A program made the translations under genes and the position numbers. The notes beneath the pieces were generated by a model that worked only from the letters and a program-made list of their open reading frames with translations, searched no databases and was not told the origin of the DNA. From NCBI GenBank assembly GCA_011369465.1, contig DRQG01000065.1:1-56173 (forward strand): DNA of 56,173 nt. The letters run 5' to 3'. The stretch comes from Caldithrix abyssi. Its GTDB lineage: Bacteria > Calditrichota > Calditrichia > Calditrichales > Calditrichaceae. Of this stretch, positions 1,876 through 28,811 are shown one piece after another. How positions within the stretch are numbered: position 1 is the stretch's first letter; every line of letters starts with the position of its first letter.

Positions 1876-3291
1876 ATGAAATACTGTCTATCTCGTTCAA
1901 TTATAGTATTGATTCTGCTCTTTTATGGTGTTAAAGCACAAAATTTTACATCTTCACCTTTAATCACTTTAAATGGTAATAATTATGATTTTGAAGTTTT
2001 ATCAACTTATGATGGAAATTATTATGAAGGAATTCCTACATATCTAATTTGGATAAATGAATTTGAAGACAGATATTCAGTTTATTTAAATAATATTAAT
2101 GATTCTACAAGTAAAAATATAATCATTGATAGCGACTCTACAGTTAAATCTAATCCTCAGATTGCCTTTAAACGATCTGATTCAGGTATAAGACTTGCAT
2201 GGCAGAAACAAACTGATACTGGTTGGCAAATTTTATATCAAGATTTTCATAGTGATTCTCTTGGCGCTATTAACATAATTGCCGACTCTTTAAATAACGA
2301 TCCGCAAATTTCAATGAACATGCATAGAATTTCTTGGGTTCAAAATGGGAGTATTTATGTAAAAGAATTCTACCCTTATTTAGGAGAGACCGAATGTGTT
2401 GACAGTATTCTTTGCTCTTCACCAGTTCTTATAAAAAATGATGGTCTTGAGCAGTCAAAACTTATGTATGAGAAGGGAATTTCCACAGCCAAGCAAATAT
2501 ATATGGCAGATTTAAATAAATATTACTCTACAAAATGGAAAATAAGTCAATTATCCAGACATGGTCACAATGTGAACCCAAATTTTGGTTTACTTGGTGA
2601 AGTCTCATTTCAAAACTTTGATGAAACAAATTGGAGAATTGTTTATTCATTTTCATTATATGAAAATATGGATACAACTACAAATGCTTCATGTGATTAT
2701 AAAAATTCTACTGTTTATAGTTATGCGGTACCTACTAAATCACAGGAAGACTATACACCATATTTCATTGTTTTCGATACAGACTCCTTGGATAACAGGG
2801 AAATATTTATAAATATAATAGAATATGGTAAAAAGGATTCGCTTATAAATATTTCTAATTCTATATACGATGATTACGGAGCAAAGCTAGCCTATTTATT
2901 TAAAAATGATAGCACTTATATCTCAATTATTTGGATAAAAAATTCTAATAATAAAAAAGATCTATGGATATCTAAATCACCTTACAATCCTAAATGGACT
3001 TCTTTGAGAAATGAAATAAATAATCCATTGACTTTTAGGCTAGAACAAAACTATCCCAACCCTTTTAATCCATCAACAACAATTAAGTATTTTATTCCAG
3101 AATCTGGGAATGTCAACTTATCTATATATGATATTATTGGCAGAAAAATTCGTATTCTTGAGCATGGTTATAAAACAAGAGGTTATCACAGAGTCAATTT
3201 TGATGGATATGGTCTATCTAGCGGTATTTATCTTTATAGGTTGGTGGTAGGTGAAACTATTTTAACCAAGTCAATGTTGTTAATACGTTAG
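1876..3291 (+). CDS. AT-rich secreted protein of unknown function with sorting domain
   Basis: This 471-residue protein has a signal peptide (MKYCLSRS through the hydrophobic core to VKAQ). It is followed by ~360 residues rich in Asn, Ser, Asp and Tyr with repeating strand-like segments, some resembling sequential 'blade' motifs (for example QIAFKRSDSGIRLAWQ and DPQISMNMHRISWV). That would suit a beta-propeller, but this is inference. Residues ~385-471 are a sorting domain with NYPNPFNPS. ATG 1876 is preferred over TTG 1864 because GGA (1866-1868) sits 7 nt upstream and the signal peptide begins cleanly there. Base and codon use is visibly much more AT-rich than in every neighbour, suggesting recent acquisition. 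The C-terminal domain still matches the local secretion system. I do not recognise the family. Confidence 0.75.
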   Translation: MKYCLSRSIIVLILLFYGVKAQNFTSSPLITLNGNNYDFEVLSTYDGNYYEGIPTYLIWINEFEDRYSVYLNNINDSTSKNIIIDSDSTVKSNPQIAFKRSDSGIRLAWQKQTDTGWQILYQDFHSDSLGAINIIADSLNNDPQISMNMHRISWVQNGSIYVKEFYPYLGETECVDSILCSSPVLIKNDGLEQSKLMYEKGISTAKQIYMADLNKYYSTKWKISQLSRHGHNVNPNFGLLGEVSFQNFDETNWRIVYSFSLYENMDTTTNASCDYKNSTVYSYAVPTKSQEDYTPYFIVFDTDSLDNREIFINIIEYGKKDSLINISNSIYDDYGAKLAYLFKNDSTYISIIWIKNSNNKKDLWISKSPYNPKWTSLRNEINNPLTFRLEQNYPNPFNPSTTIKYFIPESGNVNLSIYDIIGRKIRILEHGYKTRGYHRVNFDGYGLSSGIYLYRLVVGETILTKSMLLIR

Positions 3292-3304
3292 CGCCATACA
3301 ACAA

Positions 3305-3356
3305 GCGCATGTACCAGTATTGCCACGCGGCGCATAAATCGGCATTTTGAATGCGC
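3305..3356. other. inverted repeats in intergenic region
   Basis: GCGCAT occurs at 3305-3310 and 3330-3335, and its complement ATGCGC at 3351-3356, so either copy can pair with the last. T-rich sequence follows around 3366-3378 and 3405-3413. This may be a terminator for the AT-rich gene upstream. I see no gene in this stretch. Confidence 0.25.
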
Positions 3357-3458
3357 AGGCCGGTATTTTGATTTTTAGAAGCTGTATTCTTCATACCGAT
3401 AAAGATTTTTTTTTCATATATAAATACATCAGCACATCAAATCGTAAAGGAGCTCAAA

Positions 3459-5555
3459 ATGAAGACGCTTCCCTCCTTTGTTACGTTTGTATGCCTCGTT
3501 CTTTTGCTTTCCGTTACAAACAGTCTGTTTGCCATTGGCGCCCTGTTCTCACGACCGCGGGGCAGCGATCAGGAATATCAGAAAATGTGGATCAAAACGG
3601 TAAATGTGGATGTGGAAATACAGGATCAGGTTGCCGTTACCCATGTGGATCAGATATTTTATAACGAAATGAACACCTCGGTGGAAACCATTTATATTTT
3701 TCCGTTACCGGAAAACGCCATGATCACCGAGCTGATTTATTGGGCCAATGGCAAACGTTATGTGGCCGAAATACGGGAACGGCAGGAGGCGGTAAATGAT
3801 TACAACCGACGACTGCGTCAATGGCTGGACCCGGCCCTGCTGGAATATCTGGGCGATAATCTGTTCCGGCTGAGTATCGTACCGGTGAATGCTAAAACGG
3901 AAGTGCGCACGGAAATCACCTATGCCGAACCGCTGACTTACGATATGGGAAAAGTAAGTTATACTTTTTTACTCAACACCCTTGAACTTTCCCCCCAACC
4001 GTTGCAGAGCGTTTCGCTCGATCTGGATGCCCGAACACAAACCGGTTACAAAAGCTTTTCATCCCCGTCCCATCAAAATTCAACCGCAACGCGGATCGAA
4101 AAAGTGGCATATAACCACTATCATCTCTTTTTTGGAGATGAGAATTTTTATCCCGATCGGGATTTGATTGTCGAATTCGAAACCGTTATGGATAATGTGG
4201 ATATGCGGGTTTTAACCTATGTACCCGAACCGGCCGATTCCTTCGGGACAGACCGTTTTTACGCCATGTGGATCACTCCGCCGGATACCGTGGAAGGCAA
4301 TGAGGTTATCCCCAAAGACATTGTGTTTACGGCGGATGTTTCATCCAGCATGGATGGGGAACGGATAGAGCAGGTCAAAGAGGCCTTATACAATTTTCTG
4401 GATTTGCTTAATGCCGATGACCGCTTTAATATTATTACCTTTGGTACCTTTGTGGAAAAATTCCGCGATGATTTTGTGAAAGCCAATGAAAACAATATAA
4501 ACGATGCCAAGGATTTTGTCTATCAGATGTACGCATTGGGTATGACCAACATCGATGAAGGATTGAAAACCTCATTATCACTCAGCTACCGTGATACCTC
4601 TTCCAATAATCTCATATTTCTTACCGACGGTAAACCGACCTGGGGGGAAACCAATCAGGACTCCATTCTGGCGCACGTGCAAAAACTGAACACCAGCGAG
4701 GTGCGTATTTTTTCTTTTGGAGTGGGGGAAGATATCAGCCGCGCCCTGTTGTACCGGCTTTCGGAACAAAACCATGGTTACGACCAGTATATCGCCGCGG
4801 ACGACAGTATCGCGCTGGTGGTCAATAAGCATTTCCAACGCATATCCAAACCGGTTTTGCGCAATGTGCGTATCGATTTTGGCGGGTTGGACACCTGGGA
4901 TCGTTATCCCAAGCAGATAAACGATCTGTTTTGGGGTACCCAGTTGTTGTACATGGGTTTGTACGACAACGCCGGCACTTTTCCGGTTACGTTAAAAGGC
5001 GATATGCGTTCCGAGCAGTTTGAAGAAACCCAAATGGTAACCTTTAGCGATACCTTGGGCGGGCACCGTTTTATTCCCCGATTGTGGGCCAGAGCCAAAA
5101 TTAATCATCTGATGGATTTGATTGAAATCTATGGTGAAACCGATGAGTTGGTTGATCAGATTATCGAGCTGAGCTTACGTTTTCAGATTCTCACGCCGTA
5201 CACAGCCTTTTATTCCGATCCCGATGACGACAGTACGCCCATTGAAGAAGAAGAGACGCATAATCCCAATCAGTTCGTGTTGTATCAAAATTATCCCAAT
5301 CCGTTTAACCCATCCACCGAAATCAAATATCAATTGCCGCAGAGTCAAAGCGTTTTTCATGTGATTATTAAAATCTATGATGCGCTGGGGCGTTTGGTCA
5401 AAGTGCTGGTGGATGAAAAACAGGGCCCCGGCATCCATAAAGTGCGCTGGGACGGCACAGACATGCGCGGCAATCGCGTACCCAGCGGCGTTTACTACTA
5501 TATGCTCAAAACCGAATCGTTTGTTCAAACCCGCAAAATGGTTCTTGTGCGGTAA
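3459..5555 (+). CDS. secreted VIT and VWA domain protein with sorting domain
   Basis: This 698-residue protein has a signal peptide (~1-27) and a VIT domain (~35-160: VDVEIQDQVAVTHVDQIF, then FPLPENAMITEL). A VWA domain follows at ~285-460 with an intact metal-dependent adhesion site beginning D293-V-S-S-S. The sorting domain is at ~603-698 (NYPNPFNPSTEIKYQL). This order matches bacterial relatives of the inter-alpha-trypsin inhibitor heavy chain. VWA domains of this kind bind protein ligands through a divalent metal, so a surface adhesion or matrix role is likely; the ligand is unknown. AAAGGAG at 3446-3452 sits 6 nt before ATG 3459 and fixes the start. It is the first of three consecutive VWA genes (gaps 36 and 16 nt), probably one operon. 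Confidence 0.85.
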   Translation: MKTLPSFVTFVCLVLLLSVTNSLFAIGALFSRPRGSDQEYQKMWIKTVNVDVEIQDQVAVTHVDQIFYNEMNTSVETIYIFPLPENAMITELIYWANGKRYVAEIRERQEAVNDYNRRLRQWLDPALLEYLGDNLFRLSIVPVNAKTEVRTEITYAEPLTYDMGKVSYTFLLNTLELSPQPLQSVSLDLDARTQTGYKSFSSPSHQNSTATRIEKVAYNHYHLFFGDENFYPDRDLIVEFETVMDNVDMRVLTYVPEPADSFGTDRFYAMWITPPDTVEGNEVIPKDIVFTADVSSSMDGERIEQVKEALYNFLDLLNADDRFNIITFGTFVEKFRDDFVKANENNINDAKDFVYQMYALGMTNIDEGLKTSLSLSYRDTSSNNLIFLTDGKPTWGETNQDSILAHVQKLNTSEVRIFSFGVGEDISRALLYRLSEQNHGYDQYIAADDSIALVVNKHFQRISKPVLRNVRIDFGGLDTWDRYPKQINDLFWGTQLLYMGLYDNAGTFPVTLKGDMRSEQFEETQMVTFSDTLGGHRFIPRLWARAKINHLMDLIEIYGETDELVDQIIELSLRFQILTPYTAFYSDPDDDSTPIEEEETHNPNQFVLYQNYPNPFNPSTEIKYQLPQSQSVFHVIIKIYDALGRLVKVLVDEKQGPGIHKVRWDGTDMRGNRVPSGVYYYMLKTESFVQTRKMVLVR

Positions 5556-5591
5556 AATATAAATCATGGTATTGCTCGTATCGGAGGAAAG

Positions 5592-7955
5592 ATGAAACAA
5601 AGTATTCTGTTCACACTTATTCTGTGTGGAGCGTTGTGGGCCGGTCTGCCGGATAAATCCCGCTACGATTTACCCTCGGATCTTCGGCTAAGCAAAGTCA
5701 GCGGCGATATCGGCCCGAACGAATCCAAAATGGCCGAAAACGAGTGGCTATCTGCGACTCTGATTTTTGGCGGTTATTTTACGCTGGGTACCACCCACGG
5801 ACTTACGGATCAAATGCTGGATGATCGATGTGGCCTCACCTTCGGCCATCCCTATGCCAAAACATCTTATCCCGTATTTTCGGTCGATGGTGTTTGGTAC
5901 AAAACCGAAGACATTATCAACGATGCGGTGGAGAATTTACCCCATGCCAGCGGCGATACGCTCTATATGGAATCGCTGTTGCCAGGACGGCTTATTTTCC
6001 GCTTTTCGCTCATTTTGAATCCGCAGGAAGAAGAGGGAACCGTACAAATTAATCTATCCGTTACCAATACGGACAGCGTAACGCACCGTTACGGTCTGGG
6101 GCTTTTCTTTGATCCCGCGCTGGGACAATGGGGCGACGGTCGGGTATGGCTGGACGAGACCTTTTTATCGGAGGAAAAACTGATTACGGCCTGGCCCGCC
6201 GGTTTACCGCTTACGCTGTGGGAACGCGACCGGAGCGGAAAAGGGCTGGGCATGGATATCAACTTTAGCGAAGAGCTGCCCGATACCATCATACTGGGCA
6301 ACTGGCCGGTCTTCTATAATGATATTAGACCGGCTTATCAGCAGAACGACATAAAAAAACTGTATGATTTGCTGCTCAAAATATACTGGGCGCAGGAAAG
6401 TACAGCGCCCGGGCAAACCCGCAGCGAATCACTGACTGTTGCGCTGCGTGAACCGGATTTTTCATCTTCGGCCTTTATGCGCTGGGATTTGCCGACCGTT
6501 TTTCAGATGGATAACGGCCGTCTTTTTCCGCGCAGCCTAAGCAGCTATGTCCAGCTTACCAATACCGGGCAGGATCAGATTCAGGAAGCGAAAGTGGAAG
6601 TGAGCGCTTCGGCCGGATTCGAAACCCCGGTTTATATAAACGGTGTAAATCTACAACCGGACGGCCAAAAAACACGTAAAGCCGATTTGCGATCGAATCT
6701 GGTTTATGAAGACAAGGTGGTGGAAGTAACGGCCCGTTTTATGGAAAACGATCAGGTGCTGGATGAGTTAAGCCGGATGGTTTTTATGCCTGCTACGCCT
6801 GTTTCGGACACGGGTTTGGTGGTTCTGCTCGATTCGTTGATCGTGGAAGATTTTCCGAAGGTGAGTATTCGCTTCAATGTACAACACAAAGCGGGCGAGT
6901 ACCTGATTCGCGACTTGAGCAGAGAAAATATTTTCCTGTATGAAAATAGCGAGCGTATCGGGGAATTTAACTTCGGTAAAGACACCACCGGCGGCGCATC
7001 GACGACAGACATTGTGTTTGTACTTGATGTAACCGGCAGTATGAGCGACGAAATTAATGCCGTAAAAAATAACATTATCGAATTTACCGACAGCCTGGCC
7101 GAACGCGGCGTTGATTACCGTCTGGGGATGGTTACTTTTTTAGATACCATAGAGAATGTATATCCCTTCACAACGGATGCGCAGGAATTTCAGGATCGGG
7201 TAGCGGAACAGCGCGCCCATGGCGGCGGCGATACGCCGGAGAATTCGCTGGACGCATTGCTGGAAACGACAAAGTTTCCTTTCCGAGCCAACGCCAAGCG
7301 AATTGCTATATGGATTACCGACGCCAATTATCACGAAAACGACAATGTAACTTCGAGCACCAAACAGCAGATTATCGACGCCTTACTTTTAAACGGCATC
7401 ACCGTACACTCTATCGGCAACACAGACTATAAATCATATTATTATGACCCGATTATACAAGCCACCAACGGCGATTTTTATGATATTGACGGCAATTTCC
7501 GTGATATTCTGCTGGATATTTCGCGCTTGAATAGCGCTGTTGGCTATTTGCTGTCCTATACTTCACCGAATACAGGAACAAATTCCAATACAATCGATCT
7601 TGATATACGTTATGAAGGACTGGGCGGCCGGTTGACTCTGGATTATTCAGCCTCGTCCCGGTCCGAGGCGGAGGAACCGCTGTTGAGCTGTTACCCCAAT
7701 CCGTTTAACCCGCGTATTATCTTAAGTATCCGGCCGGGAAAATATATCGAAGGGCAAATCGATATTTATAATATGCTGGGGCAGCGGCTCAAAAAATTTA
7801 CTTTTGATCCTTCGCAAAAGACAAAAATAAGCTGGGACGCACGCAATCAGCAGGGGCAGCAGGTCAGCTCCGGTTTTTATATTGTCCGACTTTCCCTGAA
7901 GGATACAACGGGTGAGATAGTTAACCGGACCGCCCGTATTCTCTATTTGAAATAA
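5592..7955 (+). CDS. secreted VWA domain protein with sorting domain
   Basis: This 787-residue protein has a short signal peptide (~1-17). A large N-terminal region (~20-470) lacks a recognisable VIT signature but looks beta-rich. A VWA domain spans ~473-640 with an intact metal site D479-V-T-G-S and the later TD(A)N segment. The C-terminal sorting domain (~690-787) has the variant CYPNPFNPR. GGAGGAAAG immediately precedes ATG 5592. It is the middle gene of the VWA trio. The metal site predicts ligand binding outside the cell. The N-terminal region differs from its two neighbours, so the three are not simple duplicates. Function beyond adhesion or assembly is unknown. Confidence 0.8.
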   Translation: MKQSILFTLILCGALWAGLPDKSRYDLPSDLRLSKVSGDIGPNESKMAENEWLSATLIFGGYFTLGTTHGLTDQMLDDRCGLTFGHPYAKTSYPVFSVDGVWYKTEDIINDAVENLPHASGDTLYMESLLPGRLIFRFSLILNPQEEEGTVQINLSVTNTDSVTHRYGLGLFFDPALGQWGDGRVWLDETFLSEEKLITAWPAGLPLTLWERDRSGKGLGMDINFSEELPDTIILGNWPVFYNDIRPAYQQNDIKKLYDLLLKIYWAQESTAPGQTRSESLTVALREPDFSSSAFMRWDLPTVFQMDNGRLFPRSLSSYVQLTNTGQDQIQEAKVEVSASAGFETPVYINGVNLQPDGQKTRKADLRSNLVYEDKVVEVTARFMENDQVLDELSRMVFMPATPVSDTGLVVLLDSLIVEDFPKVSIRFNVQHKAGEYLIRDLSRENIFLYENSERIGEFNFGKDTTGGASTTDIVFVLDVTGSMSDEINAVKNNIIEFTDSLAERGVDYRLGMVTFLDTIENVYPFTTDAQEFQDRVAEQRAHGGGDTPENSLDALLETTKFPFRANAKRIAIWITDANYHENDNVTSSTKQQIIDALLLNGITVHSIGNTDYKSYYYDPIIQATNGDFYDIDGNFRDILLDISRLNSAVGYLLSYTSPNTGTNSNTIDLDIRYEGLGGRLTLDYSASSRSEAEEPLLSCYPNPFNPRIILSIRPGKYIEGQIDIYNMLGQRLKKFTFDPSQKTKISWDARNQQGQQVSSGFYIVRLSLKDTTGEIVNRTARILYLK

Positions 7956-7971: not shown

Positions 7972-10005
7972 ATGAAAAAATTTTATATCATACCGGTTAT
8001 TTGGATTCTATCATTTTGCGCTCAGCTATTGGCGGATGGCTTAATGCTGCCCAATGAGGATAACTATCCCAAAGAATTGCTGCGCAATAGGATGACCCAT
8101 GTAACCGTGAACATAAACGGCCTGGTAGCCGAAACCTATGTATATCAGGAGTTTGTCAACGAAAGCAACGACACCACCGACGCCGTGTATTCTTTTCCCT
8201 TGCCGCCCGACGCCCGGGCCACGGATTTTGTTTATTGGTATGAAGGAAAAGTGTACAGAGCAGTCCTCAAGGTAAAGGAACAGGCGGTCAATCCCGGCAC
8301 GGGCGAGGGAGGCATCGCCGCGGAAGTGAACAGCTATATCGGTCGCAACGGGATTAAAATTTTCCTGAAAAATATTAAAGCGGGGCAAATACAAAAGGTA
8401 CGCCTGCGCTATATAAGTCTTTGTGATTATTACCAGGGTAAGCTGACCTATACGTATCCGCTGAATACGGAAAAATTTGTAACCTATCCGCTCGATCATT
8501 TACAGTTCACCTTTAGCGTAACATCCAATTCGGATATTCTTGAGTTTGATATACCTACGCATCCGGATTATCGGGTGATCAATAATGATGGTCGTTCTTT
8601 GAAGATAGAGATGGAACAACCGAAAGCCTATGTAAACCGCGATCTGGTGTTCACCTGTCAGTTAACGCAGGATGAGTTGGGCGTGGATTTCTATTCGGTC
8701 AACAATGATAGCACAGACGGACATTTTGCTCTGTTTGTCCGGCCGCAAAATGAGGCGCCCGCCGATAGCGTGCTTCCCCGGCGCGTGCTATGTCTCTTGT
8801 CTACTGCCAGTGATATGTATGGCTATAAGCTGGAACAGAGCATCATCGCCATAAAAGATATTCTGAATATGCTGGGTGACCGCGATCAGTTTAATATCCT
8901 CTTGTTCGATCATCAAACCACCGCCTGGAAAGAGGCGCCGGTACAGGCCAGCCCGGAAAATATCCAACAGGCTGAAGATTTTCTGGATGCCGTGTCGATC
9001 GGATACGGTTCGGATTTAGGGAACGCTTTGCAAACAGCTCTGGATCAGATAACGGATGCCTCTTACAGCAATGCCATTTTAGTGTTTTCCGGAGGGACAA
9101 CCTCCATCGATCCGCGCCAGATTGAAAGCCAAAACACCTATCGCAGCGGTATTTTTCCGATTAGTATCGGGACATCGGGCGGATTGGCCCGCCTGGAAAT
9201 GACGGCGGCGCTGAATTACGGATTTGTAACCTACGTTCAAGGAACCGAGTACATCAGGCAGAAAATGGTTCGGGTATTCGAACAAATCAGTCAACCGGTT
9301 TTGGATGATGTGCGCCTGGAATACGGTAAGGCCGATCTTTCACAGCTCATTCCGGAAAAAATTCCCAATGTTTACGCCGGTTCCTATCTTTTTACCGCCG
9401 GGCGTTATGCCGAAAGCGGTGAATCGGCGCTGAGTATAGCCGGATATTCGGCCCGGGGACCGGTAGTGTATGATTTCAGGTTGGAGTTCAGCGACAGCAC
9501 CAATCCGTACAAATTCGCCGAATCTTTATGGGCCAAAGAAATGATTGATGCGCTGGAAAGGGAAATCGAAATTTACGGGGAAACCGATGAGCTGAAAGCG
9601 CGCTTAATCGATTTAAGCCTTACCTACAATATCCGTTGCCGGTACACGGCCTTTATTGCGGACTATGAGAACGAGGCAACCCCCATAGACCGTACGCTGC
9701 CTCAGTTGAAGCCGCAAAGTTCATTCCTTGCCGGAAATTATCCCAATCCGTTCAATCCGCTTACCCGCATCCGCGTTTACATATCGCCCGAGGCAGATCA
9801 TGCGGTTAAACTGATTAAAATATATAACATTCTTGGGCAGTTGGTGGCTGTTATCGACATATCCCATTTGACCTCCGGCTGGCATGAGGTACTGTTTGAT
9901 GCGCTCAACTTCTGGGGCGGCCGGTTGTCCAGCGGTATGTACATTGTGCAACTGCAAATCGGGAACAATATCAGAAACGCCATTCGGATCAATCTGGTCA
10001 AATAA
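7972..10005 (+). CDS. secreted VIT and degenerate VWA-like protein with sorting domain
   Basis: This 677-residue protein has a signal peptide (~1-21), a VIT domain (~30-150: FPLPPDARATDFVYW matches the first gene's FPLPENAMITELIYW), and a VWA-like fold (~265-430). The sorting domain is at ~581-677 (NYPNPFNPLTRI). The first metal-site motif, DxSxS in active VWA domains, reads S277-T-A-S-D281, so the key Asp and the second Ser are gone. Metal-dependent ligand binding through the canonical site is therefore unlikely. AGAGGAG at 7955-7961 sets the ATG at 7972. It closes the operon and is followed by a terminator. It resembles the gene at 3459 along its length, including the EIYGETDEL segment after the VWA, so it is a paralogue that lost its metal site. 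Confidence 0.82.
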   Translation: MKKFYIIPVIWILSFCAQLLADGLMLPNEDNYPKELLRNRMTHVTVNINGLVAETYVYQEFVNESNDTTDAVYSFPLPPDARATDFVYWYEGKVYRAVLKVKEQAVNPGTGEGGIAAEVNSYIGRNGIKIFLKNIKAGQIQKVRLRYISLCDYYQGKLTYTYPLNTEKFVTYPLDHLQFTFSVTSNSDILEFDIPTHPDYRVINNDGRSLKIEMEQPKAYVNRDLVFTCQLTQDELGVDFYSVNNDSTDGHFALFVRPQNEAPADSVLPRRVLCLLSTASDMYGYKLEQSIIAIKDILNMLGDRDQFNILLFDHQTTAWKEAPVQASPENIQQAEDFLDAVSIGYGSDLGNALQTALDQITDASYSNAILVFSGGTTSIDPRQIESQNTYRSGIFPISIGTSGGLARLEMTAALNYGFVTYVQGTEYIRQKMVRVFEQISQPVLDDVRLEYGKADLSQLIPEKIPNVYAGSYLFTAGRYAESGESALSIAGYSARGPVVYDFRLEFSDSTNPYKFAESLWAKEMIDALEREIEIYGETDELKARLIDLSLTYNIRCRYTAFIADYENEATPIDRTLPQLKPQSSFLAGNYPNPFNPLTRIRVYISPEADHAVKLIKIYNILGQLVAVIDISHLTSGWHEVLFDALNFWGGRLSSGMYIVQLQIGNNIRNAIRINLVK

Positions 10006-12399: not shown

Positions 12400-12468
12400 C
12401 CTTCCCTGTTGAATCAGGGAAGGTGGCTTCCCGACCTGTCGGGGCTGGGGAGGGTCAACAGGTTTTTT
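12400..12468 (+). terminator. repeat-derived terminator-like structure between GT4 and GH130 genes
   Basis: CCTTCCCTG (12400-12408) is perfectly complementary to CAGGGAAGG (12415-12423). CCCGA/TCGGG (12430-12434/12439-12443) forms a second hairpin, typical of the dispersed repeat family seen at 19742 and 28332. Overlapping these, CCTGTTGA (12405-12412) pairs with TCAACAGG (12455-12462), followed by six T's (12463-12468). Either local hairpins or the long stem can form. The T-run supports termination, perhaps partial, before the GH130 gene. Confidence 0.45.
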
Positions 12469-19666: not shown

Positions 19667-19741
19667 AAATTATGGATAATCGGATGAATGTATTACTGAA
19701 TTAATGGCCCGCCGGAATAAATATGCACAGGGAAGGGAGGC

Positions 19742-19960
19742 TCACCCTTCGGCAGGCTCAGGGTTCGGAGGCTGAGCCTTGCCTTTCCCGAGTCATCGGG
19801 GTCGAAGCCACCAACCGATCCCTTCGACAGGCTCAGGGATCGTTGGCTGAGCCCGTCGAAGCCGACATACGTTCCCTTTAACGAACTCAAGGAACGGTGG
19901 CTGAGCTTCGCCTGTCCCGACTTGTCGGGATCGAAGCCGCTATATGTTCCCTTCGACCGA
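19742..19960. repeat. cluster of dispersed palindromic repeats between recQ and pfk
   Basis: Three full units and one partial share the pattern CCCTTCGACAGGCTCAGGG...GGCTGAGC...CCCGA-nnnn-TCGGG...TCGAAGCC. They lie at about 19745-19809, 19815-19865, 19870-19938 and 19945-19960. Units differ in whether the CCCGA/TCGGG hairpin is present, and arms are complementary. The same family occurs at 12430 and inside the gene at 27684 (28332-28512). An open frame through this cluster is repeat-derived, not a gene. The repeats lie between the end of pfk and the start of recQ. Confidence 0.8.
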
Positions 19961-26379: not shown

Positions 26380-27684
26380 ATCACCACATCATCAAAACAA
26401 ACCAGACGGGCTGAGCGCAGGCAGATTTTAGCCTGGACGCTGTACGATTTTGCCAATACATCCTTCAGCGTAATCGTGGTAACGGTGGTTTACGCCGTCT
26501 ATTTTAAACAGTACATTGTCGGCGATATAACCATTTCCTTTTGGGGATTGGAACGGAATCCCGGCGATTTGCTGTGGGGGATGAGCGGTGCGCTGTCCAT
26601 GTTTTTGGTGGGCGTCACTTCACCGGTTATCGGCGCCATGGCTGATTACGGCAGCAAGAAAAAACTGTTTTTGCTGCTATATACCTTGCTCTGCATTGCC
26701 GCAACCGTTTCGCTTTACGGGCTGATGCCCGGAATGATTTGGCAGGGGATGGCCCTGTTTATTTTGGGTAATATCGGGTTCGAAGGCGCTATCGTGTTTT
26801 ATAACGGATTTCTGCCCCAAATATCCAACCCGGATAATATCGGCAAAATTTCCGGTTACGGTTTCGCACTGGGCTATGTGGGTTCCCTGGCCTCGTTGAT
26901 GATTGCCCTGCCTTATGCCAATGACGCTTTTGCCTCAGGCGATCTCGGCCGTATGCGGCCCACGTTTGTTTGGGCCGGGTTGTTTTTTCTGGCTTTTTCC
27001 CTGCCGTTTTTCTTTTTTATTAAAGAACAGATTACGCCGATAAAACAAAAATCATCGGGCTGGTTGGCCGAGGGTTACCGCCGTACCAGAGAAACCCTGA
27101 AGAAGATCCGTGAATTTCCTGAAATAGTGCGTTTTTTAACGGCCTATTTTGTGTATATCGACGGCGTGAATACGGTCATTTATTTCAGCGGTATTTACGC
27201 CAGCGATTCGCTGGGATTCTCTTTGCGGGAGGTGATTCAGTTTTTTGCCGTCGTCCAGGCCTCGGCCATCTCCGGGTCGTACATCTTCGGCTTTCTCACC
27301 GACAAAATCGGGCCGCGCAAAACCATCAAACTGACTCTGGTGTTGTGGATGATCGTGGTAATCGGCGGTTTCTTCTCTTATGATAAAGCCGCCTTTTATA
27401 TGGTCGGTTTGGTTGCCGGCGTGGCTATGGGGTCGTCTCAGGCGGCCAGCCGGGCTCTAATGGGGCGTTTGATTCCCGAGGGTATGGAAGCGGAATTTTT
27501 CGGTTTTTACGCGCTGATGGGTAAATTTTCGGCCATACTTGGTCCATTGATTTTCGGGCTGGTCTCCACCCTGACGGGCAGCCAGCGCTGGGCGGTTCTG
27601 TCCATTATTTTCTTTTTTATCGCCGGTTTTGTGATGATCAATCGCGTAAATGAGTCGGTTACCTATAAAAAGGTTGTGATCTGA
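26380..27684 (+). CDS. UMF1/Atg22-type MFS transporter, apparent AUC start
   Basis: This ~434-residue permease has about 12 membrane segments. The family's conserved opening, RQILAWTLYDFANTSFS, is present in frame but lies upstream of the first GTG (26476), so that codon cannot be the real start. The preceding in-frame stop is at 26365. Between them there is no ATG, GTG or TTG. The best-placed codon is ATC at 26380, 8 nt after AAGGGA (26366-26371), giving I/M-TTSSKQTRRAERRQ. Either AUC initiation, a start-codon mutation or a base-call error (ATG to ATC) explains this. UMF1 relatives are putative efflux transporters; the substrate is unknown. It ends in a TGATG overlap with the next gene. Confidence 0.8.
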   Translation: MTTSSKQTRRAERRQILAWTLYDFANTSFSVIVVTVVYAVYFKQYIVGDITISFWGLERNPGDLLWGMSGALSMFLVGVTSPVIGAMADYGSKKKLFLLLYTLLCIAATVSLYGLMPGMIWQGMALFILGNIGFEGAIVFYNGFLPQISNPDNIGKISGYGFALGYVGSLASLMIALPYANDAFASGDLGRMRPTFVWAGLFFLAFSLPFFFFIKEQITPIKQKSSGWLAEGYRRTRETLKKIREFPEIVRFLTAYFVYIDGVNTVIYFSGIYASDSLGFSLREVIQFFAVVQASAISGSYIFGFLTDKIGPRKTIKLTLVLWMIVVIGGFFSYDKAAFYMVGLVAGVAMGSSQAASRALMGRLIPEGMEAEFFGFYALMGKFSAILGPLIFGLVSTLTGSQRWAVLSIIFFFIAGFVMINRVNESVTYKKVVI

Positions 27685-28811
27685 TGCTGTCGGAGCGTTC
27701 CGCATCAGCCTTCCTCCGGACGGCGGCCATTGCTTGCCTTATAATTATCTCGGTGCATACCGTAGGCGCGGAAACGCTGAACTACCGGAACTATCAATTC
27801 ATACATCAAAACAAAGACAGCCTGCTGGTACGTCATCTGTTGGGAAAAATTGAACCGTCTTTAATAAAGATCGAAGATTTTTTTGGTTATGCGCCGGTAA
27901 GTCTGGTAACCATTTATCTTACCCGCAGTGAAGCAGACTACCGCAAACTGACCCGTAACGGCATACCGGAGTGGAGTCAGGCGGTCGCTTTTGGTAAGGA
28001 AAAAATCATTGTGCTTAAACTGATCAGCGCGGACGATGTGTTGAAAGGGCCGGAAGTTCTCCTGCACGAACTGGTGCATATCTACTTTGCCGAACGATTT
28101 CCGCCGGGGCGCGTACCGAACTGGCTGAACGAAGGACTGGCGCAGTATCTTTCGGGTAAACGACTAACACTGCAGGATAAGGTTTTCCTGGCCCAATCCA
28201 TGTCCGCCAAAAAGCTGATCGGATTGGATGGTTTGGATACTCTACTCACTTTCAGCCGGCCGCGTGCCCGTTTGGCCTATATCGAAGCCCTGAGCGCTGT
28301 GGAGTACTTTATACAGGACTTTGGCGTAAACATCCGTTCCCTGAGTTCAACGAAAGGAACAAGTACCGGCTTCGACAGGCTCAGCCTACGATCCCTGAGC
28401 TCTGCCTGCCCCGACTCGTCGGGGTCGAAGGGATCGGGAAGCGGCTTCGATAAACTCAGCCAGCGTTCCCTGAGCTCTGCCTGCCCCGATTTGTCGGGGT
28501 CGAAGGGAACGGTGAACCCCGGGTACCAAAGGTTAAAAGAACTGGTGAAAACGCTTCGTACGGAGCGTTCCCTGAATAAAGCATTTTTAATGGTTACCGG
28601 GTCTGATTATATCGATTTTGAGGTGGGCTGGTACGCCTGGCTGGATGAGAAATTTCATTGGCTTCTTATTTTGAATATTGATAATTTGCTGTGGATCGGC
28701 ATGGGAGTTCTGGCCCTGCTGGCCATCGTTTTTGTCCGCTGGCGAAACCGGCGCAAAATAAAACAATGGGAAGCGGAAGACGAGTCATACATTGATACAG
28801 AAAGGGAATAG
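27684..28811 (+). CDS. MA-type zinc peptidase with membrane anchor, interrupted in frame by dispersed repeats
   Basis: This 375-residue protein has an N-terminal signal/anchor (~10-30), a gluzincin site H128-E-L-V-H132 with E150 in NWLNEGLAQYL, and a C-terminal transmembrane helix (~332-350) with a basic, acidic-ended tail. The periplasmic zinc peptidase ('peptidase MA-like') normally runs straight from the ...VEYFIQDFG helix to GYQRLKELV. Here about 60 residues (~217-276) of low-complexity Ser/Leu/Gly sequence separate them, encoded by the repeat at 28332-28512. The insertion preserves the frame and both flanking segments. TGATG coupling with the transporter upstream suggests co-translation. 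The substrate is unknown. Confidence 0.85.
   Translation: MLSERSASAFLRTAAIACLIIISVHTVGAETLNYRNYQFIHQNKDSLLVRHLLGKIEPSLIKIEDFFGYAPVSLVTIYLTRSEADYRKLTRNGIPEWSQAVAFGKEKIIVLKLISADDVLKGPEVLLHELVHIYFAERFPPGRVPNWLNEGLAQYLSGKRLTLQDKVFLAQSMSAKKLIGLDGLDTLLTFSRPRARLAYIEALSAVEYFIQDFGVNIRSLSSTKGTSTGFDRLSLRSLSSACPDSSGSKGSGSGFDKLSQRSLSSACPDLSGSKGTVNPGYQRLKELVKTLRTERSLNKAFLMVTGSDYIDFEVGWYAWLDEKFHWLLILNIDNLLWIGMGVLALLAIVFVRWRNRRKIKQWEAEDESYIDTERE
28332..28512. repeat. dispersed palindromic repeats inserted in a coding sequence
   Basis: A partial unit (28332-28366, CGTTCCCTGAGTTCAACG...) is followed by two near-identical units of about 70-75 bp (~28367-28439 and 28442-28512). Each contains CGGCTTCGA, CTCAGCC, TCCCTGAGCTCTGCCTG and a CCCCGA-nnnn-TCGGGG hairpin then TCGAAGGGA. 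Orientation is opposite to the cluster at 19742. They stay open in the host frame and encode the repeated peptide RSLSSACPD-x-SGSKG. The full stretch adds roughly 60 codons. Confidence 0.8.

Follow-up and report, generated by a model that had tools for sequence, protein, structure and literature searches.

An in-frame array of REP-type palindromes within a membrane metallopeptidase gene of Caldithrix abyssi

Dispersed palindromes that lie in frame within proteins have already been published, both as REPs and as Rickettsia palindromic elements (RPEs) (PMC3733652, PMC10969869, PMC2229807). Di Nocera et al. (2013, PMC3733652) report that inserts formed by clusters of intragenic GTAG- and CGTC-tagged REPs measure 43-82 aa; in their definition a CGTC-tagged REP ends in CGTC or TGTC and has AT at the base of its stem, and they place RPE-4 and RPE-6 of Rickettsia among the CGTC-type REPs. 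A Rickettsia guanylate kinase that carries an RPE is translated and active (PMC2229807), and REPINs have been proposed to move as a single-stranded hairpin with the transposase acting in trans (PMC3116915). Here we describe a comparable array inside a peptidase gene of Caldithrix abyssi (Calditrichota). The window analysed is the whole of contig C65 (DRQG01000065.1; 56,173 nt), which belongs to a 4.31 Mb draft genome in 161 contigs; several of its large genes for secreted proteins repeat the sorting-tail type C-terminal motif YQNYPNPFNP (1436-1495, 5274-5333 and 9721-9780).

The host gene (27684-28811, + strand) encodes a 375-aa membrane metallopeptidase of the Peptidase MA superfamily, as indicated by a profile match to PF13485 (Peptidase_MA_2; E = 4.6e-17), an HExxH motif at residues 128-132 and a distal Glu, and the initial annotation had recognized it as a metallopeptidase gene. 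Its ATG overlaps the stop codon of the gene upstream, and the surrounding gene order is maintained in many relatives, so that the homologues aligned below can be treated as orthologues; judging by resemblance, we take these neighbours to encode an MFS transporter upstream and, downstream, a pyruvoyl-dependent arginine decarboxylase-like protein and an agmatinase-like protein. Invariant residues of the peptidase flank the insert on both sides and are kept (H128, E129, H132 and E150 before it; D308, E313 and W316 beyond it). The open reading frame runs through the repeats without a stop codon or a frameshift, which agrees with the frame preservation first reported and speaks against a gene killed by frameshift. 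Judged by its sequence, the host gene appears intact despite the insert.

The array itself, also reported initially as in frame within this gene, was placed at 28335-28513 (+ strand) and is stop-free. It begins with a half-unit, a single degenerate REP read directly from the sequence (CGTTCCCTGAGTTCAACGAAAGGAACA; 28335-28361, + strand) with three mismatches to the core pattern and a weak hairpin. REP dimer 1 follows (28366-28432, + strand) and is composed of an inverted REP GGCTTCGACAGGCTCAGCC, a 12-nt gap between the cores and a REP TCCCTGAGC..TCGAAGGGA, with the 24-nt loop form CCCCGACTCGTCGGGG and a DNA fold z of -2.6; REP dimer 2 (28441-28507, + strand) has the same layout, with the loop module CCCCGATTTGTCGGGG and a DNA fold z of -1.35. 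The 75-nt units of the two full dimers are 81% identical. An earlier count of two full copies and one partial copy is right if the unit is a dimer, and the peptide repeat RSLSSACPD-x-SGSKG had been read correctly.

Relatives carry the same protein without this stretch. The peptidase gene is present in 39 of the 60 genomes searched, its own genome counted, and in 29/29 aligned orthologues only 3-4 residues separate the conserved blocks that stand 69 residues apart in the window protein. Matches of relatives in tblastn likewise stop near residues 214-216 and restart near residues 278-285. The alignment proposed at the outset, against uninterrupted homologues, thus returned no homologue with the linker, and a search of 39 further genomes of the class did not find the insert peptide. 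Insertion between conserved segments was therefore correctly described, although the added length is about 66 residues rather than about 60 (approximately 28329-28526, + strand; protein residues about 216-281); the ends are approximate because no close relative with an empty site was found. In an AlphaFold2 model built on a 19-sequence alignment (mean pLDDT 84), residues 224-273 have pLDDT values below 50 and lie between confident helices at 192-215 and 279-293. The model thus predicts a disordered, floppy loop for the insert.

The repeats belong to a dispersed family. In the window, for which shuffles give an expectation of 0.21, the core CTGAGN{2,30}TCGAAG has 8 matches; in the whole genome it has 283, against 12 in a reversed control. 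Cores of the form TGAGC-loop-TCGA occur with loops of 3 nt (101 copies), 4 nt (71) and 24 nt (61), and complementary bases occupy the stem positions beyond the core in 88/88/77% of copies, compared with 64/45/33% in shuffles. The stems flanking the core are of the types GGC/GCC, CCC/GGG, TCC/GGA, TAG/CTA and TGG/CCA. Elsewhere in the genome, a CGTC/TGTC tag is present on 41 of the 43 copies with TCC, TAG or TGG stems, while the tag, with AT at the stem base, was not found in the CCC and GGC stem classes of which the insert is composed. Tagged REPs (for example TGTCATCCTGAGC..GTCGAAGGATGACA; loci L072, L078 and L085) occur in the genome side by side with the untagged family and have the same core. 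Copies also occur near the ends of contigs C84, C103, C109, C134 and C135, which are probably assembly breakpoints.

Of 30 divergent REP pairs, 25 are separated by a gap of exactly 12 nt. The consensus dimer forms a single 15-bp hairpin (z = -5.1), while a REP on its own does not fold; given this fixed gap and the one-hairpin fold, the repeat unit is a dimer of inverted REPs of the REPIN/BIME type. The 24-nt loop form, which holds a second small palindrome, exceeds the short form by 21 nt, so that the extension leaves the reading frame unchanged. Reading the consensus dimer by hand gives four frames of six without a stop; for non-coding arrays the mean share of open frames is 43%. One such intergenic array of the same family, annotated initially at 19742-19960, is real and maps to 19734-19958 (no strand assigned), with like-oriented spacings of 75 and 54 nt; a further copy claimed near 12430 is only a loop-module look-alike (CCCGACCTGTCGGGG) with no REP core and was dropped from the family. 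The idea that unit lengths of 54 and 75, both multiples of three, are a general adaptation for keeping the frame was rejected, since like-oriented spacings in non-coding arrays are distributed 11/7/5 over remainders 0/2/1, which is not convincing.

In our interpretation, held with high confidence, a dispersed, non-autonomous REP-dimer element of the REPIN/BIME type landed in frame in the peptidase gene, where it now forms a small array. The supporting observations are a dimeric unit dispersed in the genome, an insert that orthologues lack, an uninterrupted frame, catalytic and C-terminal residues that have been kept, and a loop predicted to be disordered. A Y1/HUH enzyme acting in trans would probably have moved a REP dimer into the gene as a single-stranded hairpin, and the array may afterwards have been enlarged by unit duplication. 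Three features could explain the survival of the insertion: it kept the frame, most frames of the dimer contain no stop codon, and the loop tolerates extra residues. Insertions that broke genes would have been purged. The added peptide is most likely without a function of its own.

Several units in a conserved, operon-like gene, and two 75-nt units that are both open with the same peptide motif, might instead suggest that the inserted peptide has been co-opted as a spacer or as a regulatory or binding loop and is maintained by selection. We consider this very unlikely. The two units differ at 12 sites, distributed 1/5/6 over the codon positions, which gives no sign of constraint or purifying selection on the inserted peptide; the insert is predicted to be disordered; and a glycosyltransferase reads copies of this family in another frame. 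It could also be argued that adding 66 residues to a protein of about 309 residues would abolish activity and that the gene is a recent pseudogene, open by chance, but this is very unlikely given an uninterrupted frame, intact catalytic and distal invariant residues, similar identity to the five nearest relatives on the two sides of the insert (45-52% before and 35-47% after) and the position of the insertion in a predicted loop. An assembly or binning artefact, in which a repeat was misjoined into the gene, is the kind of error to which a draft of 161 contigs with family copies near contig ends is prone; however, both gene halves are in frame on one contig with conserved neighbours on either side, a misjoin would rarely preserve the frame, and in-frame arrays appear in three other genes too, which makes this explanation extremely improbable.

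Those three genes, which were found in the genome-wide search for further coding copies that had been suggested from the outset, encode a family-9 glycosyltransferase, an M14 carboxypeptidase and a lipoprotein. The glycosyltransferase (L131, PF01075) has about 56 extra internal residues that are absent in 12/12 relatives, and its array is read in the other orientation and in another frame than that of the peptidase. The carboxypeptidase has more than 100 extra residues directly after its signal peptide when compared with three orthologues. In the SurA/TPR-type lipoprotein the array lies upstream of the signal peptide, and relatives begin near the signal peptide, which leaves the start codon in doubt and makes this a weaker case. 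Altogether, 4 of the 41 arrays with two or more cores are coding, as against a window of which about 95% is covered by ORFs of at least 90 aa (counted stop to stop, which overestimates coding density); coding insertions are therefore strongly under-represented, as expected if most have been purged.

Mobilization was approached through the two Y1_Tnp loci of the genome (L061 and L062). No copy of the core was found in the flanks of either gene, and thus neither is a RAYT flanked by the same REPs, as in REPINs, and both transposases were rejected as mobilizers of the family. Since no RAYT association was found, we call the element REPIN-like and make no claim of RAYT mobilization. Both Y1_Tnp genes sit amid other palindromes (CACGACT..AGTCGTG and CGAAACCGAT..ATCGGTTTC; CCCTTTCAGGG), possibly REP families of their own. 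A Propionicimonas MAG with the identical dimer gave no Y1_Tnp match, so either the bin lacks the mobilizer or the mobilizer there is a protein outside Pfam Y1_Tnp. CGTC REP families without a dedicated flanking transposase have been described (PMC3733652); Y1_Tnp genes flanked by other palindromes agree with those published CGTC REPs and leave mobility unexplained.

When 84,980 species genomes were scanned for exact matches, the fixed-spacing dimer was recovered elsewhere only in this Propionicimonas MAG (six contigs; loci L216-L220 and L223) and in an epsilonproteobacterial MAG (VCAW01; two contigs). Looser cores are much commoner, with 264 in the Propionicimonas MAG; they vary in number among relatives and are lacking in several, a genome of the same family (G005) included. 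Genes of the epsilonproteobacterial MAG contain both of its exact dimers and several of the looser ones, all in frame (L221:1538-2443; L222:1780-2928 and 2915-5923; L245; L241), the hosts being Mfd, a FolC-like ligase, an AddA-like nuclease and an ACC deaminase-like enzyme, some of them named by resemblance. Most copies of the family in that MAG appear to be in frame in conserved genes. The ACC deaminase-like protein was rejected as a clean insertion: a solved homologue (9jqf) has a native stretch of similar length at that place, which points to replacement or misalignment.

These results add another bacterial lineage, on clean orthologue evidence, to those with palindromic repeats that code for protein. 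They show that different proteins can read a REP dimer in more than one frame and orientation, and they point to one dimer unit that distant phyla have in common and that is often coding in at least one of them. Whether REP elements regularly supply new protein segments thereby becomes testable. It is conceivable, though we regard it as doubtful, that a single REP-dimer family with a near-invariant unit acts as a protein-coding palindromic element across distant phyla (this lineage, Actinobacteria and Epsilonproteobacteria), its stop-free frames making in-frame insertion frequent and most copies being coding in some genomes, such as the epsilonproteobacterial MAG. If so, the REP-dimer family would be a general source of new protein loops.

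The repeat sequence itself was not found in the literature text searched, and the array is best placed by comparison with three described systems. With REPINs and BIMEs (PMC3116915) it shares an inverted REP doublet at fixed spacing, a hairpin, alternating orientation in arrays and many copies dispersed in the genome, but REPINs are described as extragenic and adjoining RAYT genes, an association not found here. With the GTAG- and CGTC-tagged REPs it shares short palindromes that form dimers and clusters, mostly intergenic and sometimes in frame in unrelated proteins; the units inserted here differ in lacking a CGTC/TGTC or GTAG tag and in having other stems, although the tagged CGTC copies elsewhere in this genome have the similar core TGAGC-N4-TCGA. 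The likeness to RPEs (Ogata et al. 2000, reviewed in PMC10969869 and PMC2229807), drawn in the initial annotation, holds for behaviour: both are dispersed palindromes inserted in frame in unrelated conserved proteins, here missing in orthologues, with an insert predicted to be compatible with the structure of the host protein. The parallel is drawn for behaviour and not for sequence: RPEs are described as Rickettsia elements of about 105-150 nt, whereas the anatomy here is that of a REPIN/BIME-type array of REP dimers of about 49-70 nt in another phylum. The peptidase array is thus a well-supported further example of the known in-frame REP/RPE insertion, with an untagged stem class and in a new bacterial group.
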